Origin: Serratia plymuthica
GTDB taxonomy: Bacteria; Pseudomonadota; Gammaproteobacteria; Enterobacterales; Enterobacteriaceae
Length of the DNA: 64,000 nt
Reading direction: 5' to 3'
NCBI RefSeq assembly: GCF_018336935.1
Contig: NZ_CP068771.1
Location: 2,480,001 to 2,544,000, forward strand
Position numbers and translations under genes: made by a program. Below the pieces are notes generated by a model that was not told where the DNA came from, did not search any database, and saw nothing but the letters and a program-made list of their open reading frames with translations. Below, piece by piece: positions 2,063 to 59,142 of this stretch; within the stretch, counting starts at the first letter, position 1, and each line of letters opens with the position of its first letter.

Positions 2063-2755
2063 CTATGACCCCAGCGCGGTCCCAAACAGCAGGCCAACGC
2101 CGGAGGAAACCGCCATCGCCAGCGCGCTCCAGAACAGGATACGCACTATGCCCGGGCGGATCGGTGCGCCGCCTGCCCTGGCGGCAACACCCCCGAGAAT
2201 GCCCAAAGACACCAGTGCGGAGACCACGATGGCCGGAATGGTCCATGCGAGCGGTGCCAGCACCGCGACCAATAACGGCAGCAGCGCCCCGACGGAAAAG
2301 CTCAACGCCGAGGCCAGCGCCGCCTGCAACGGCCGCGCCGTGGTGATGGCCGAAATCCCCAATTCATCGCGGGCATGGGCTCCCAACGCATCATGAGCCA
2401 TCAGTTTTTCCGCCACCTGTTTGGCCAACGCCAAATCCAACCCGCGATGCACATAAATAGATGTCAGTTCACGGTGCTCGCCCGGGTAATCGCTGAGCAA
2501 CTCCGACTGCTCCTCCGCCAGAGCGGCCTTTTCCGTATCCGCCTGCGATGATACCGAAACGTATTCGCCGGTAGCCATCGACATCGCGCCGGCAACCAGC
2601 CCTGCAATGCCGGCCAGCAAAATGCCGCCGTGCGCCGCATTGGCCGCCGCCACGCCGAGCAACAGGCTGGCCGTCGAGACAATCCCGTCGTTTGCGCCCA
2701 GCACCGCCGCCCGGAGCCAACCTATATTCTCAATGCTGTGCCGCTCTTTGTGCAT
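2063..2755 (-). CDS. VIT1/CCC1-family membrane carrier
   Basis: This is a 230-residue membrane protein of the VIT1/CCC1 family, whose members carry Fe2+ or Mn2+ in plants and fungi. The start shows the family signature LRAAVLGANDGIVSTASLLLG in the first transmembrane segment. It is followed by the AGAMSMATGEYVSVSSQ segment, an acidic cytoplasmic section rich in E and D (about residues 75-130, the metal-binding region in the family), and three C-terminal transmembrane segments. AAGGA lies 9 bases before the ATG. It is the third gene of a minus-strand run with the VOC and DUF1428 genes. A role in divalent metal export is inferred from the family; the metal is unknown. Confidence 0.85.
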   Translation of the reverse strand: MHKERHSIENIGWLRAAVLGANDGIVSTASLLLGVAAANAAHGGILLAGIAGLVAGAMSMATGEYVSVSSQADTEKAALAEEQSELLSDYPGEHRELTSIYVHRGLDLALAKQVAEKLMAHDALGAHARDELGISAITTARPLQAALASALSFSVGALLPLLVAVLAPLAWTIPAIVVSALVSLGILGGVAARAGGAPIRPGIVRILFWSALAMAVSSGVGLLFGTALGS

Positions 2756-2783
2756 CAGGCCCGTCCTTGTCGTGGGGGAAAAG

Positions 2784-3254
2784 TTAACCGCGAGCCGCCG
2801 CTTCCAGCCCGGCGATATCCAGTTTTACCATCTGCAACATAGCTTCAGTCACCCGTTTCACCTTCGCGCTGTCGGGGTCGCTCATCAACTCACCCAGCCG
2901 CTGGGGAACAATCTGCCAGCTCAGCCCCCAGCGATCGCGCAACCAGCCGCACTGCTCTATGGTGCCGCCTTCGCTTAACGCTTCCCACAGCCGATCCACT
3001 TCAGCCTGATCCGCGCATTCGACCATAATCGAAAAACTGTGATTGAAAGCATCGAGCGGGCCGGCTTCAATCGCCGCATAGCGCTGATCGCCGAGGGTAA
3101 AGGCCGCCAGTTTTACGCTGCCTGCGGGGCCGCTCGGGGTATCGGCGGGCAAGGTGGAGCTCCAGGTCAGGGAGGAACCGGGGATCAGCGCTATGTAACA
3201 ACGCAGCGCCGCTTCCATGTCTTTTTCAAACCACAGGTGTTGTGTGATCTTCAT
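2784..3254 (-). CDS. VOC-family protein (PhnB / 3-demethylubiquinone methyltransferase-like fold)
   Basis: This is a 156-residue protein with the glyoxalase/VOC fold of the PhnB type. It begins with KITQHLWFEKDMEAALRCY, has the FTLGDQRYAAIEAGP strand and the SFSIMVECADQAEVDRLWEAL block, and ends with a WQIVPQRLGEL segment. Proteins of this group are small dimers of mostly unknown function. I chose the ATG at 3254, not the upstream in-frame start at 3278, because GGAGGG lies directly before it and the protein then starts with the family N-terminus. It is 13 bases downstream of the DUF1428 gene and probably cotranscribed with it. No substrate can be assigned. Confidence 0.85.
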   Translation of the reverse strand: MKITQHLWFEKDMEAALRCYIALIPGSSLTWSSTLPADTPSGPAGSVKLAAFTLGDQRYAAIEAGPLDAFNHSFSIMVECADQAEVDRLWEALSEGGTIEQCGWLRDRWGLSWQIVPQRLGELMSDPDSAKVKRVTEAMLQMVKLDIAGLEAAARG

Positions 3255-3267
3255 CGCACCCTCCCCG

Positions 3268-3621
3268 CTACGCGTCAATGATAGGTTCGAAACCGCCGAA
3301 AATCATGCGTTTGCCGTCAAACGGCATCTGATCGCCCAGCGCCTTCATGCGCGGATCGTTCATCATTTTCTCGTTGGCGGCGTCGCGCACCGCTTTTGAG
3401 GGATATTCGATCCAGCTGAAAACCACCACTTCATCGGCCCCGGCTTTCACCGCACCGCGAAAATCGGTGAGTTTACCTTCGGGCACGTCGTTACCCCAAC
3501 ATTCGACGATCCGCGTCGCGCCGAACTCTTTAAACAAGGGTGCGGCCGTGGCGGCCAGTTTCAGGTACGCCTCCTTATTGGCGGCAGGTACCGCGACAAC
3601 AAAGCCATCAACATAGTTCAT
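3268..3621 (-). CDS. DUF1428-family protein (YbaA-like)
   Basis: This 117-residue protein matches the DUF1428 (YbaA-like) family, a small dimeric alpha-beta barrel fold of unknown function. Recognisable blocks are NYVDGFVVAVPAANKEAY at the start, VECWGNDVPEGKLTDF in the middle and KMMNDPRMK near the end. The ATG at 3621 has a strong AGGAGG ribosome site (3630-3636), which rules out the longer open frame beginning at 3714. It is the first gene of the run with the VOC and VIT1 genes. DUF1428 and VOC genes are both often stress-linked, but nothing here shows a function. Confidence 0.85.
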   Translation of the reverse strand: MNYVDGFVVAVPAANKEAYLKLAATAAPLFKEFGATRIVECWGNDVPEGKLTDFRGAVKAGADEVVVFSWIEYPSKAVRDAANEKMMNDPRMKALGDQMPFDGKRMIFGGFEPIIDA

Positions 3622-3737
3622 GAGATGATTCCTCCTGTCCGTTCGGACATCAGGTAGGGCGCAAGCGACATTGCCCACGCTCCCTTTCATTTTAGCCCCC
3701 TTGGTCGGGGTCAACCATGAACGACAAACGGTGGATT

Positions 3738-5180
3738 TCAGTGGTCGCTGTAAATCGGCGGGGATATTTCTGGCGTGGCGACGCGGTTGCGGCCGCCATT
3801 TTTGGCTTTGTAGACTGCCATGTCGGCAATTTTCAACAGATTATCAAGGCTTTGCTCTGTACCGCCGAGGCAGGTAACCATACCTATGCTAACGGTGATT
3901 TGCAGATGATTGCCGGCGGGCATGGCGATCGATTCGATTTCCACCCGCCGGCGCAAACGTTCGGCCAGATACAGCGCATCCTGCTGGCGCTCGAGAAGCG
4001 CAACGATCGCGAACTCCTCCCCGCCCATACGGCCAAACAGATCGGAATCGCGCAGATCGCCGGCAATGGCGCGGGTAAAGGAAATCAGTGCGGCGTCACC
4101 GCCGGAGTGCCCAAAGCGATCGTTGATGGATTTGAAGTAGTCGATGTCCAGCATCATGACGCAAACCTGCTCGCCTTTTTGGGTGAGCAACCGCGCGCCG
4201 CGCTGCATAAAGGCATTGCGCGTCAGCACATGGGTCAGAGCGTCATGGTTCGCCACGTGTTCCAACTGCCGCAGCAGCGCATTACGGGCGAAATTCATGC
4301 TGGCGATCGCAATCGGCCCCAGCGCCAACAGCGCTACCCCAAGCCGCATCGACACGGTGTTCTGCAGCGCCTTCATATCGACGTTAATGGCGATCAGCCC
4401 CAAATCGATGGCCAAATGGCACCATAAAACGTAGATCAGCACCACCACCAGGGTGGAGAACAGTGAAAACGACATCGCCAGCCACAGCAGGATCGGTATG
4501 GGGAAAATCACGGCGCCAGGCCCGCCAATCAGGATACTGCCAACGCAAGCCAGCACCAGCAGGATAAGAACCGCCAGTTTTCTGCCGGTGTTATACCACC
4601 CGTGCCGCCGGGTAATGCCCTGAGCCATACCACGCAGATAGGCTCGCCAATCCGCAGGAAAAGCCAGGATAAACGGCATCAACGTAATGTAATTGGTAAA
4701 TTCCGAAGACATCCACAGCGCCAGAGCGGGGAAATATTCGCGATCAAACAACAGCACCGAGGCCAAGGCACCTATTACCCCGGTGACGGCGGCGCTGACC
4801 AGACAAATGGCAAACAGATAAACGCTGGATGACGTGCGTTCCAGCGTTCTGACCTGCGGCGGCACGCGCTTAAACAACTGATACCCCACCACGACGCCGG
4901 CAATATTGGCGCAGTTCAGCAGCAGGGCTTTGTCGAGCGCGCTGCCGGTGAGCAGATCTGCCGTCAAATACCCCAACATCGCCATCGCCCAGCCTAAACG
5001 GCTGACAAGTTTCGGATAACGAACGAACACCGCCAGCAACACCGCATTGCCCGGCCAAAATGCCGCCAGAAAGCCAATGGGCCGGCTCTCGATACCGAAG
5101 AGGCAGGCGGCGAACACCAGTATAAAGACGGTGAGCGCAGGCCGTAATGTTGTGGTGTCAGGTGACGGGATGGTGTGCAT
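3738..5180 (-). CDS. Membrane diguanylate cyclase (MASE1 + GGDEF)
   Basis: This is a predicted inner-membrane enzyme that makes cyclic di-GMP from GTP. Residues 13-300 form eight or so hydrophobic segments of MASE1 type, with the typical WPGNAVLLAVF segment near residue 42. Residues 305-465 form the GGDEF domain. The active-site motif is an intact GGEEF (386-390), preceded five residues earlier by RDSD (377-380), which is a complete RxxD inhibitory site. The enzyme should therefore be active and feedback-inhibited. There is no EAL domain. The signal sensed by MASE1 is not known. It is separated from neighbours by a 115-base gap downstream and about 400 bases upstream and is probably monocistronic. 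Confidence 0.9.
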   Translation of the reverse strand: MHTIPSPDTTTLRPALTVFILVFAACLFGIESRPIGFLAAFWPGNAVLLAVFVRYPKLVSRLGWAMAMLGYLTADLLTGSALDKALLLNCANIAGVVVGYQLFKRVPPQVRTLERTSSSVYLFAICLVSAAVTGVIGALASVLLFDREYFPALALWMSSEFTNYITLMPFILAFPADWRAYLRGMAQGITRRHGWYNTGRKLAVLILLVLACVGSILIGGPGAVIFPIPILLWLAMSFSLFSTLVVVLIYVLWCHLAIDLGLIAINVDMKALQNTVSMRLGVALLALGPIAIASMNFARNALLRQLEHVANHDALTHVLTRNAFMQRGARLLTQKGEQVCVMMLDIDYFKSINDRFGHSGGDAALISFTRAIAGDLRDSDLFGRMGGEEFAIVALLERQQDALYLAERLRRRVEIESIAMPAGNHLQITVSIGMVTCLGGTEQSLDNLLKIADMAVYKAKNGGRNRVATPEISPPIYSDH

Positions 5181-27749: not shown

Positions 27750-27929
27750 TTATTTTTTCATTTTCGCAGACAATTGCCAGACAAAAGCAACCAGCAGCAT
27801 ACTACCCGAGAATGTCAGCATTAAACTAGTCAGGAATTCTGATTTTCCGGTTGAATAAAAATAAATCTCATTAACACCCACAGAGATCATTAAAATGGCA
27901 TAAAGCAAACCAAGAATAAAAATAATCAT
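27750..27929 (-). CDS. 59-residue membrane protein in the magnesium locus
   Basis: The ATG at 27929 opens a 59-codon frame ending in TAA at 27750. It has two hydrophobic segments: IIFILGLLYAILMISVGV (about 2-19) and SLMLTFSGSMLLVAFVW (about 35-51), with an NEIYFYSTGKSEF loop and a C-terminal KMKK, giving a two-pass protein. A weak GAGTG ribosome site precedes it. It lies between the MgtS homologue and the CDF gene on the same strand, 25 bases from the latter. I do not recognise the family. Its position suggests a small regulator or partner of the neighbouring transporters, which is inference only. Confidence 0.6.
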   Translation of the reverse strand: MIIFILGLLYAILMISVGVNEIYFYSTGKSEFLTSLMLTFSGSMLLVAFVWQLSAKMKK

Positions 27930-27977
27930 TATCGTTTCACTCGTTAAAACCGCAGGCGGCGGTCAGCGTTTATCGGT

Positions 27978-28014
27978 ATCCTCCCCGTCGTAAATAAAGC
28001 ACTTCGGGGAGGAT
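27978..28014. promoter_or_regulatory. 10-bp inverted repeat between mgtS and the 59-residue gene
   Basis: ATCCTCCCCG (27978-27987) and CGGGGAGGAT (28005-28014) pair perfectly around a 17-base AT-rich loop. On the minus strand it lies between two cotranscribed genes and may stabilise the upstream message or attenuate the downstream one. Confidence 0.45.
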
Positions 28015-28040
28015 GCATTCTGGCGGTTCTTCAACGTTCA

Positions 28041-28133
28041 TTAATCATCCCATTTGGTGCTCATATAGGCGGCCAACAGGCCCAGCGAGCTGATGATGCT
28101 CAGAAATCCTACAAAAATCGTCATATTTCCCAT
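28041..28133 (-). CDS. mgtS: MgtS-like 30-residue membrane protein
   Basis: The frame encodes 30 residues: MGNMTIFVGFLSIISSLG, then LLAAYMSTKWDD. It aligns over its length with the 31-residue E. coli MgtS (formerly YneM) as I remember it, sharing GNM near the start, F and L in the hydrophobic part, and the hallmark end LAAY-x-S-x-KWDD. MgtS binds and stabilises the Mg2+ transporter MgtA and also affects PitA. The ribosome site GAGGAAG lies 8 bases before the ATG. The gene lies 143 bases downstream of the MgtE-type gene on the same strand, a setting different from E. coli, and fits a function in magnesium supply. Confidence 0.8.
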   Translation of the reverse strand: MGNMTIFVGFLSIISSLGLLAAYMSTKWDD

Positions 28134-28147
28134 TATTACTTCCTCAG

Positions 28148-28204
28148 TTAACGGTTATCGATAAAAACCTCTTTAATTAAAAAGTGGGTTAAAGGATTGT
28201 TCAT
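28148..28204 (-). CDS. Possible 18-residue peptide upstream of mgtS
   Basis: ATG at 28204, MNNPLTHFLIKEVFIDNR, TAA at 28148. A perfect AAGGAGG (28218-28224) lies 13 bases upstream, a little far from the start codon. The stop is 14 bases before mgtS. It could be a small coupling or leader peptide for mgtS, or a chance frame behind an otherwise unexplained ribosome site. Confidence 0.3.
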   Translation of the reverse strand: MNNPLTHFLIKEVFIDNR

Positions 28205-28242: not shown

Positions 28243-28269
28243 TCCGCTCCGGCAGCGACACGAAGCGGA
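28243..28269 (-). terminator. Hairpin after the MgtE-type gene
   Basis: On the minus strand TCCGCT (28269-28264) pairs with AGCGGA (28248-28243), followed by CATTTTATC, starting 8 bases after the mgtE stop. It is a weak terminator candidate that may allow partial read-through into mgtS. Confidence 0.4.
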
Positions 28270-29354: not shown

Positions 29355-29545
29355 ACAGAGGGAGTGCAGACAGCCTATCTCCGCGTCCAGGTTTTAGCAC
29401 TATACAACGTATCTGATGTATTTATCAGAAGTTACCTTGGGCTAAACCTTAATCCGATAAAGCCTGTCTTAACCTTGGGCATCTCTCGATGTCGTCAGAT
29501 CAGTAACCTGTGTTTGTATAGGAGCCTCGCCAAACGAGATACTGC
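29355..29545 (-). ncRNA. M-box (ykoK) magnesium riboswitch
   Basis: Read on the minus strand, the leader carries the conserved M-box blocks in order. These are GGCGAGGCTCCTATAC (about 29532-29517), ACACAGG with ACTGAT, then ACATCGAGAGATGCCCAAGG (about 29494-29475), TAAGACAGGC, the GTGCTAAAACC block (29400-29390) and GGAGATAGGCTG (29382-29371). These match the RNA fold that senses Mg2+ and shuts off transporter genes when Mg2+ is plentiful. The MgtE-type gene begins about 55 bases downstream. I could not see a clear terminator in the short expression platform, so translation control or Rho action is possible. Boundaries are approximate. Confidence 0.85.
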
Positions 29546-57531: not shown

Positions 57532-59142
57532 ATGAGCGATAACAGCGCCGTTCAAGCAGGTGTTCCAACTGCGTCCAGCCTGCCAAAAATCTACCAAAAG
57601 AACAGTCGACTCACTGTTCTTTTTTTTGTTTTTTTATTAGTACTGGGGATCGCTTTTGCCGGAGTGAATCTATTTAACGACGTGACCGACGCCGGTGCGG
57701 TTTATACCAGCTATCTCCCTTTCCTTTTATTGGGGTTAGCGCTGCTTATTGCGCTGGGCTTTGAATTCGTTAATGGTTTTCACGATACCGCCAATGCGGT
57801 AGCCACCGTGATTTACACCCATTCACTGTCGCCGATGGTAGCGGTGGTCTGGTCGGGATTTTTCAACTTCCTCGGCGTCTTGCTCTCCAGCGGCGTAGTG
57901 GCGTTCGGCATCATTTCACTGCTGCCGGTTGAACTGATCCTGCAAGCCGGTACCGGTAACGGTTTTGCCATGGTTTATGCCCTGCTGTTCTCGGCGATTA
58001 TCTGGAACCTGGGCACCTGGTGGCTTGGGCTGCCTGCCTCCTCGTCACATACGCTGATTGGTTCCATCATCGGCGTGGGGGTGGCTAACGCCCTGATCCA
58101 CGGCCGCACCGGCACCAGCGGCGTGGACTGGGGACAGGCGATTAAAGTGGGCTATGCGTTGCTGCTTTCACCGGTGATCGGTTTTGTGTTTGCCGCCCTG
58201 CTGCTGCTGGCGTTGAAGATGTTCGTTAAAAACCGTCAGTTGTACACCGCCCCCAAAAATGATGCGCCGCCGCCGCTGTGGATCCGGGGTTTGCTGATCC
58301 TTACCTGTACCGGTGTCTCCTTCGCCCACGGCTCCAACGACGGGCAAAAAGGCATGGGCCTGATCATGCTGATCCTGGTCGGCACCATGCCGATCGCCTA
58401 TGCCCTGAACCGCTCGATGTCGCCGGAGCAAATCCCGCGCGTGGCCGCGTTGGCGGAGGTCACCAAAAACGATCTGTTGCGCCAATTCCCGGCGGTCAGC
58501 CAGATACCGCCGCGCGAGGTGCTTACCGGTTACGTACGTACCAACGAATTGACGCCGGAAGTGGTACCCGCGCTGGCGCAACTGACCGGCGCCATTGGCG
58601 ATCAGGTCCGCCAGTACGGTTCTGTCGACAAGATCCCGGCGCAGGCGGTGTCCAACACCCGTAACGATATGTATCTGGCATCGGAAACCATCAAGCACCT
58701 GAAAGCGGAAAAGCAGCTTCAGTTTTCCGCCGATTCACAGCGCAATCTGGATGCGTTGAAAGGCGATCTGGACAGCGCCACCCGCTTTATCCCGTTCTGG
58801 GTCAAGGTGGTGGTGGCGATTGCTCTCGGCCTTGGCACCATGGTCGGCTGGCGGCGCATCGTGGTTACCGTTGGGGAAAAAATCGGTAAAAGCCACCTGA
58901 CCTACGCCCAGGGCGCCAGCGCCGAGCTGGTGGCGATGACCACCATAGGTGCGGCGGATGCCTTCGGCCTGCCGGTTTCGACCACTCACGTGCTGTCTTC
59001 CGGTATCGCCGGCACCATGGCGGCCAACCGCTCCGGCCTGCAAATGTCGACCCTGCGCAACCTGCTGATGGCCTGGGTTCTGACGCTGCCGGCCTCAATA
59101 CTGCTTTCCGCCGGGCTGTACTGGGTTTTCACTCATTTTTAA
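57532..59142 (+). CDS. pit: Inorganic phosphate transporter, Pit family
   Basis: This 536-residue membrane protein of the PiT family has about ten transmembrane segments and a cytoplasmic domain (about 235-430). The family signatures are GFHDTANAVATVIYTHSLSP near residue 80 and FAHGSNDGQKGMGLIML near residue 265, and a second GAxxAF-type block near the end (GADAFGLPVSTTHV-like). It takes up phosphate, probably as a metal-phosphate complex, using the proton gradient. GGAAGG precedes the ATG at 57532. It is followed after 26 bases by ppk2, and both sit behind a Pho box, which is unusual because PitA is often constitutive. Confidence 0.9.
   Translation: MSDNSAVQAGVPTASSLPKIYQKNSRLTVLFFVFLLVLGIAFAGVNLFNDVTDAGAVYTSYLPFLLLGLALLIALGFEFVNGFHDTANAVATVIYTHSLSPMVAVVWSGFFNFLGVLLSSGVVAFGIISLLPVELILQAGTGNGFAMVYALLFSAIIWNLGTWWLGLPASSSHTLIGSIIGVGVANALIHGRTGTSGVDWGQAIKVGYALLLSPVIGFVFAALLLLALKMFVKNRQLYTAPKNDAPPPLWIRGLLILTCTGVSFAHGSNDGQKGMGLIMLILVGTMPIAYALNRSMSPEQIPRVAALAEVTKNDLLRQFPAVSQIPPREVLTGYVRTNELTPEVVPALAQLTGAIGDQVRQYGSVDKIPAQAVSNTRNDMYLASETIKHLKAEKQLQFSADSQRNLDALKGDLDSATRFIPFWVKVVVAIALGLGTMVGWRRIVVTVGEKIGKSHLTYAQGASAELVAMTTIGAADAFGLPVSTTHVLSSGIAGTMAANRSGLQMSTLRNLLMAWVLTLPASILLSAGLYWVFTHF

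Follow-up and report, generated by a model that had tools for sequence, protein, structure and literature searches.

A short gene in Serratia plymuthica encodes a homologue of the small protein MgtS and stands, together with the transporter gene mgtE, behind an M-box Mg2+ riboswitch. We think it probable, though well short of assured, that this is a canonical MgtS, which would stabilise MgtA and perhaps inhibit PitA, and that its expression has been rewired to the riboswitch. The protein, in other words, is already known, and it is the wiring that is new. By the window we mean the whole stretch of 64,000 nucleotides that was analysed, and the features in it that matter here are collected in Table 1.

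Table 1. Features of the mgtS region, with positions counted from the first nucleotide of the window
Feature	Position	Strand	Remarks
M-box (ykoK leader) Mg2+ riboswitch aptamer, RF00380	29372..29545	-	145.2 bits, gathering score 44, full length 1-169
Short-form mgtE, 340 aa	28277..29299	-	CBS domains and MgtE channel domain (Pfam)
Stem-loop between mgtE and leader ORF	28243..28269	-	no clear U tail; fold z -0.23, like shuffles
Leader ORF MNNPLTHFLIKEVFIDNR	28148..28204	-	18 codons and stop; upstream of mgtS
mgtS	28041..28133	-	30 codons and stop; single hydrophobic segment; C-terminal SxKWDD motif
mgtT-like mini-ORF MNVEEPPECILPEVLYLRRGGYR	27970..28041	-	ATG shares one base with mgtS stop codon; 23 codons
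Strong hairpin ATCCTCCCC...GGGGAGGAT within mgtT-like ORF	27978..28014	-	-22.4 kcal/mol, z -2.9
orf59, 59-aa uncharacterised protein	27750..27929	-	two hydrophobic stretches
CDF-family cation efflux transporter, 462 aa	26348..27736	-	last gene of apparent operon

Identity and conservation of mgtS

The preliminary description of this DNA had proposed a 30-codon minus-strand frame with a good ribosome site and a resemblance to E. coli MgtS, and on both points it was right. The frame translates as MGNMTIFVGFLSIISSLGLLAAYMSTKWDD (30 aa), and the last base of a GAGGA ribosome site lies 7 bases 5' of its ATG, while scores above the cut-offs of NCBIfam NF033842 small_MgtS, an equivalog model (8.2e-18, 64.2 bits, cut-off 35), and of Pfam PF22865 MgtS-like (37.6 bits, cut-off 27) confirm, at the level of sequence, a genuine MgtS homologue. 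Indeed, a chance frame is ruled out by these profile scores and by a pN/pS of 0.17 among the 21 distinct genes from 26 genomes of the genus, a sign of purifying selection, with 15 of the 25 variable sites at third positions. The gene is present in 26 of 30 genomes of the genus, which answers the suggestion in the same description that a lack of conservation among related Serratia would speak against it; the four genomes without it measure 3.6, 2.5, 1.9 and 1.5 Mb. In its own genome of 5.46 Mb it is a single copy, with no second mgtS found, and named relatives include Serratia marcescens, proteamaculans, plymuthica, quinivorans, grimesii, ureilytica, rubidaea and silvae. The remark that genes this short are easily missed by automatic annotation is only partly apt, because NCBI holds a curated model for MgtS.

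The protein is 54.8% identical to MgtS of E. coli K-12 (b4599, 31 aa) over 31 aligned positions, and the likeness takes in profile, length, the single hydrophobic helix (hydropathy 2.29 across residues 6-22), the GNM start, the SxKWDD end and an mgtT-type mini-ORF overlapping the mgtS stop codon. Residues were counted only at loci having such a mini-ORF, and in the 44 distinct sequences from these F7 and W28 are invariant; outside them residue 7 is Tyr at four loci (L073, L074, L076 and L080) and Trp 28 has become Cys at one (L075). What differs is the neighbourhood, which reads ydeE-mgtS-mgtT-mgrR-dgcZ in E. coli and M-box-mgtE-mgtS-orf59-cdf in Serratia.

An apparent operon behind an M-box

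The M-box, the short mgtE, mgtS, the 59-aa membrane ORF and the CDF transporter gene follow one another on the same strand, so ordered that mgtS would be the second full gene of an M-box-headed operon. The preliminary description overlooked the M-box, the leader ORF, orf59 and the mgtT-like mini-ORF. The adjacency of mgtS and mgtE had been noticed correctly: the neighbouring frame does match the Pfam MgtE and CBS models. Against TIGR00400 it scores 230.9 bits, just below the cut-off of 232.75, and since this alignment covers positions 130-448 of 450 the window MgtE is without the N-terminal part. None of the 26 mgtS loci in the genus lacks the M-box, and 25 also have a full-length mgtE. Among the named loci (L200-L217), which overlap the genome sample so that the two sets of counts are not independent, the M-box is present at 16 of 18 and absent in S. 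rubidaea NCTC12971 and Serratia sp. AKBS12.

A full-length aptamer before mgtE is shared with the known M-box, or ykoK leader, RF00380; the parts of the literature covered describe a Mg2+-sensing riboswitch preceding mgtE in B. subtilis (PMC3641672, PMC8844918), which was a positive control in our search. The difference from known M-box units is that mgtS lies within the downstream unit and, in five genomes (G433, G296, G725, G518 and G396), is its first full gene. We claim no expression platform for the window M-box, because the 83-base stretch in question folds no better than shuffles, and no Rfam leader reaches the gathering score at the genome's own two mgtA-type genes. In the stem-loop that separates mgtE from the leader ORF, two base pairs have changed on both sides across 26 distinct Serratia sequences, and a single sequence breaks one pair; this stem-loop could terminate a share of transcripts.

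In E. coli, mgtS has a PhoP-type low-Mg2+ promoter. A PhoQ gene was found in the Serratia genome, but we rejected PhoP control of the window mgtS, as the coding strand, scanned with up to two mismatches allowed, showed no PhoP-box-like site between mgtE and mgtS or immediately 5' of the M-box. This is a difference in wiring and not in any feature of the protein. Of the 11 such sites in the whole window, against 5.6 expected, one lies at 28187-28203 on the other strand and one within the M-box, at 29458-29474. A comparison of mgtS leaders for a PhoP-like pattern (0 of 35 versus 23 of 54) is a mere hint, the pattern having been chosen by eye.

The leader ORF, with an AGGAGG that ends 13 bases before its ATG and a stop 14 bases 5' of mgtS, is exactly 57 nt long in all 26 genus genomes. 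As a conserved protein it is a weak candidate (pN/pS 0.70, a weak coding constraint), and the leader motif that it holds, GAGGTTTTTATCGA, accounts better for its conserved end. The pattern AGG-N2-8-TAT[C/A][G/A] occurs in 31 of 33 distinct leaders of the Serratia type, where shuffles give a mean of 1.2 and a maximum of 4, and in 18 of 52 of the E. coli type, where shuffles give a mean of 2.6 and a maximum of 7. This excess is inflated because the pattern was picked post hoc and the leaders are related. For E. coli, the part of PMC12350097 covered here mentions a weakly detected CDS58 upstream of mgtST.

Loci without an intact adjacent mgtE

The preliminary description inferred from adjacency that MgtS might act with MgtE, and this is not borne out, since five loci keep mgtS without an intact adjacent mgtE. 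Our family sample of 392 genomes holds 87 M-box sites in 80 genomes, and every site was inspected. At 81 of them mgtE lies within 700 bases 3' of the M-box on the same strand; at the other six the next gene is mgtS in four (G433, G296, G725 and G518), a porin in one and transposase-like ORFs, judged as such by eye, in one. The order is M-box, mgtS, orf59 in G433; M-box, a remnant equivalent to mgtE residues 22-57, mgtS, orf59, cdf in G296; M-box, mgtS, orf59, cdf in G725, whose leader shares 98.5% identity with the G296 leader; and M-box, mgtS, cdf, without orf59, in G518. An adjacent mgtE gave no tblastn match at E 0.01 in G725, G433 or G518, and for G433 and G518 this is why a loss is presumed. 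Within the genus of the window, G396 has an internally deleted mgtE, of which codons 1-31 and the 3' end survive, and keeps the M-box, the leader ORF, mgtS and orf59. The ends of this deletion differ from those in G296, and there have therefore been at least two independent losses.

Because these loci retain mgtS, the gene can dispense with an adjacent MgtE, though not necessarily with every MgtE. Some MgtE was found in all 14 genomes searched: G396, G433, G561, G443 and G493 each have one match, a long frame elsewhere in the genome, and in G296, G725 and G518 a short M-box-led mgtE also persists elsewhere. The idea of MgtE as an obligate partner is weakened by the losses next to mgtS, with the qualification that each of these 14 genomes has an MgtE somewhere. 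Serratia-type loci outside the genus, taken as those whose mgtS matches that of the window better than that of E. coli, number nine when G766, with its interrupted mgtS, is excluded; in the stretches examined, mgtE is intact at two, orf59 present at eight and cdf at five.

Several other arrangements were seen along the way. Both G434 (L161) and G562 (L167) carry a tandem pair of M-box-led short mgtE genes. In G766 (L196, about 2973-3062) an mgtS-like frame, recognised by eye, meets an in-frame stop ahead of the C-terminal motif and lies 3' of an M-box and mgtE and 5' of orf59 and cdf; here mgtS is apparently decaying while mgtE persists. In G716 (L198, C1:769000-774669) an M-box at 4001-4170(-) stands before a porin ORF at 2664-3773(-) (PF00267, 215.7 bits), which suggests Mg2+ control of outer-membrane entry.

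MgtA, PitA and the canonical function

An MgtA-type pump (E 1e-180) is found in 89 of 97 MgtS-positive genomes and in 128 of 295 MgtS-negative ones, and when MgtS is called at the Pfam cut-off the figures are 86 of 90 and 131 of the remaining 302. The Fisher p of 1e-18 for the first comparison counts genomes individually, regardless of ancestry or genome size, and both common descent and the presence of small genomes confound the association. Two MgtA-type pumps are present in the genome of the window, each of the 26 MgtS-positive genus genomes has at least two MgtA-type matches (one gene being split in G412), and the pump also occurs in G396, G433, G296, G725, G561, G443 and G493. The MgtS-positive genomes without it are G434, G441 (49% complete), G511, G518, G528, G547, G562 and G716, among which G518 keeps mgtS directly behind its M-box, with no MgtA at E 1e-180 and two MgtE genes elsewhere. 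PiT-family genes were present in four of four genomes tested, and one of the two in the genome of the window, a PF01384 phosphate transporter gene, lies in the window itself at 57772-59109(+). In a 2.5 Mb genus genome without mgtS, an MgtA-type match (G420:C1:1226807-1228384) has 13 internal stop codons.

In the parts of the literature covered, where MgtS is described in E. coli and Salmonella, the E. coli protein is reported to bind and stabilise MgtA (PMC10925321, PMC13209247), the stabilisation being against FtsH (PMC10925321, PMC13209247, PMC10710835), and inhibition of PitA is thought likely (PMC10710835). In the portion of PMC10925321 covered, cryo-EM maps of purified MgtA-MgtS are without density for MgtS, so that the binding site has not been directly seen. 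The same portions of PMC10710835 describe MgtR and MgtU of Salmonella, which are likewise short low-Mg2+ peptides acting on MgtA or MgtB; they are different proteins from MgtS, and we liken them to it by description only.

Taken with the function in E. coli, the co-occurrence with MgtA makes canonical MgtS action under new control the likeliest explanation. A drop in cytoplasmic Mg2+ would be expected to make the M-box allow expression, and the MgtS then produced, as a one-helix peptide of the inner membrane, would bind an MgtA-type P-type ATPase, shield that pump from FtsH and perhaps restrain PitA. The net outcome would be Mg2+ uptake together with Mg2+ retention, and the MgtE of the same operon would offer a parallel Mg2+ route and be no obligate partner of MgtS.

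Other explanations

What else might this arrangement mean? One answer, which we regard as unlikely, is that the adjacency to mgtE is incidental, with mgtS using its own promoter and the M-box being relevant to mgtE only. This would fit the stem-loop with some compensatory change between the two genes, the leader motif and ribosome site that mgtS has to itself, and three genomes (G443, G561 and G493) that keep mgtS and orf59 with no adjacent mgtE and without an M-box match even when the threshold is relaxed to E 1. However, promoter-like sites in the region are at chance level (4 against 3.2 expected), the gap is without a PhoP-box-like site on the coding strand, and in G433 mgtS comes first behind the M-box, the two being separated by a CCCGC/GCGGG stem and seven T that the terminator scan did not flag and that lie in a stretch folding no better than shuffles. 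A shift of partner in Serratia, by which MgtS would have switched to MgtE or added it, and would bind, protect or gate MgtE made from a shared mRNA, seems to us quite unlikely and the least probable of these answers. In 25 of the 26 genus genomes the two genes do lie side by side and are apparently co-transcribed, MgtE occurs somewhere in every genome searched for it, and G518 combines MgtS with two MgtE and no MgtA. Against this stand the five genomes that retain mgtS although the mgtE next to it is internally deleted, a remnant or missing, and the fact that of the 80 genomes with an M-box in our family sample only 12 have an mgtS match within 3 kb of it.

A third answer starts from orf59, the steadiest neighbour of mgtS at Serratia-type loci: MgtS and the orf59 product, two small membrane proteins, may form one unit acting on a transporter, be it MgtA, PitA or the CDF protein. 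The 59-aa ORF adjoins mgtS throughout the 26 genus genomes and at eight of the nine outside loci, of which two have an intact mgtE, and its pN/pS is the same 0.17 as that of mgtS; it has no Pfam or NCBIfam match above cut-off, and its named relatives are called hypothetical or uncharacterized. Yet E. coli-type loci, mostly with 1.5 kb of flank, gave no orf59 tblastn match at E 0.01, G518 does without it, and linkage is not interaction, all of which leads us to consider such a unit unlikely. The canonical MgtS under M-box control remains our preferred reading.

A mini-ORF on the mgtS stop codon

We call the next ORF mgtT-like purely for its position and start motif. It resembles E. coli MgtT (b4775, 34 aa, PF23498) in having an ATG whose first base is the final one of the mgtS stop codon, in its MN-acidic-Pro start and in the strong hairpin ahead; it differs in having 23 codons and no Pfam match at E 1, where E. 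coli MgtT scores 96.3 bits. We searched 108 loci, 81 of them distinct, and an ATG behind mgtS overlaps it by one base at 67, is directly adjacent at 4 and does neither at 10. Sixty-five of the 71 ORFs have an MN start, an acidic residue in codons 3-5 and a Pro in codons 6-8, and in nine the frame stops after 7-8 codons. These counts, and those of the leader motif and the PhoP-like leader pattern, exclude the G198 loci L008 and L070, which a simple identity search missed, the weak matches below the Pfam cut-off in G528 and G547, and seven second copies from the same genomes (L089 and L092-L097). Over codons 2-8 versus 9-13, pN/pS is 0.57 versus 1.03 at all loci, 0.54 versus 0.79 at E. coli-type and 0.69 versus 1.03 at Serratia-type loci, and the constraint is therefore moderate and clearest over the first eight codons. 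This suggests that the eight-codon acidic/Pro start is the most conserved part of MgtT. The window hairpin was equalled in stability by 1 of 200 shuffles, offers little variation for a pairing test and has no U tail; E. coli mgtT likewise enters a hairpin (z -3.8).

The mgtT start, with its acidic and Pro codons, also resembles that of MgtL, the E. coli mgtA leader (MEPDP start), with the difference that MgtL precedes mgtA and the mgtT-like ORF comes after mgtS. At the MgtL EPDP motif ribosomes drop off in low Mg2+, according to the part of PMC11282234 covered. Because of this resemblance one can imagine mgtT as chiefly a Mg2+-sensing mini-ORF rather than a protein, which would gate the mRNA downstream of mgtS through acidic/Pro ribosome drop-off and the hairpin, a reading that we consider unlikely. 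If it were true, ribosomes leaving mgtS would read Mg2+ again, the genes gated in Serratia would be orf59 and that of the CDF transporter, and the operon would be headed by an M-box and carry a ribosome-based Mg2+ sensor midway.

What the locus means

The portions of the open-licence literature covered, which include PMC10925321, PMC10710835, PMC13209247, PMC10384996 and PMC8844918, contain no mgtS beside mgtE or behind an M-box, and within the same limits we did not meet the M-box wiring, the natural losses of mgtE, the company of orf59 or the eight-codon mgtT core. The target transporter is known for few small proteins of bacteria, MgtS among them, and in Serratia the same peptide has been placed behind a riboswitch rather than in an E. 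coli-type locus. In addition, orf59 is an uncharacterised small membrane protein that accompanies mgtS more steadily than mgtE does, and the natural genomes in which the adjacent mgtE has gone and mgtS has been kept help to tell an operon neighbour from a protein partner.
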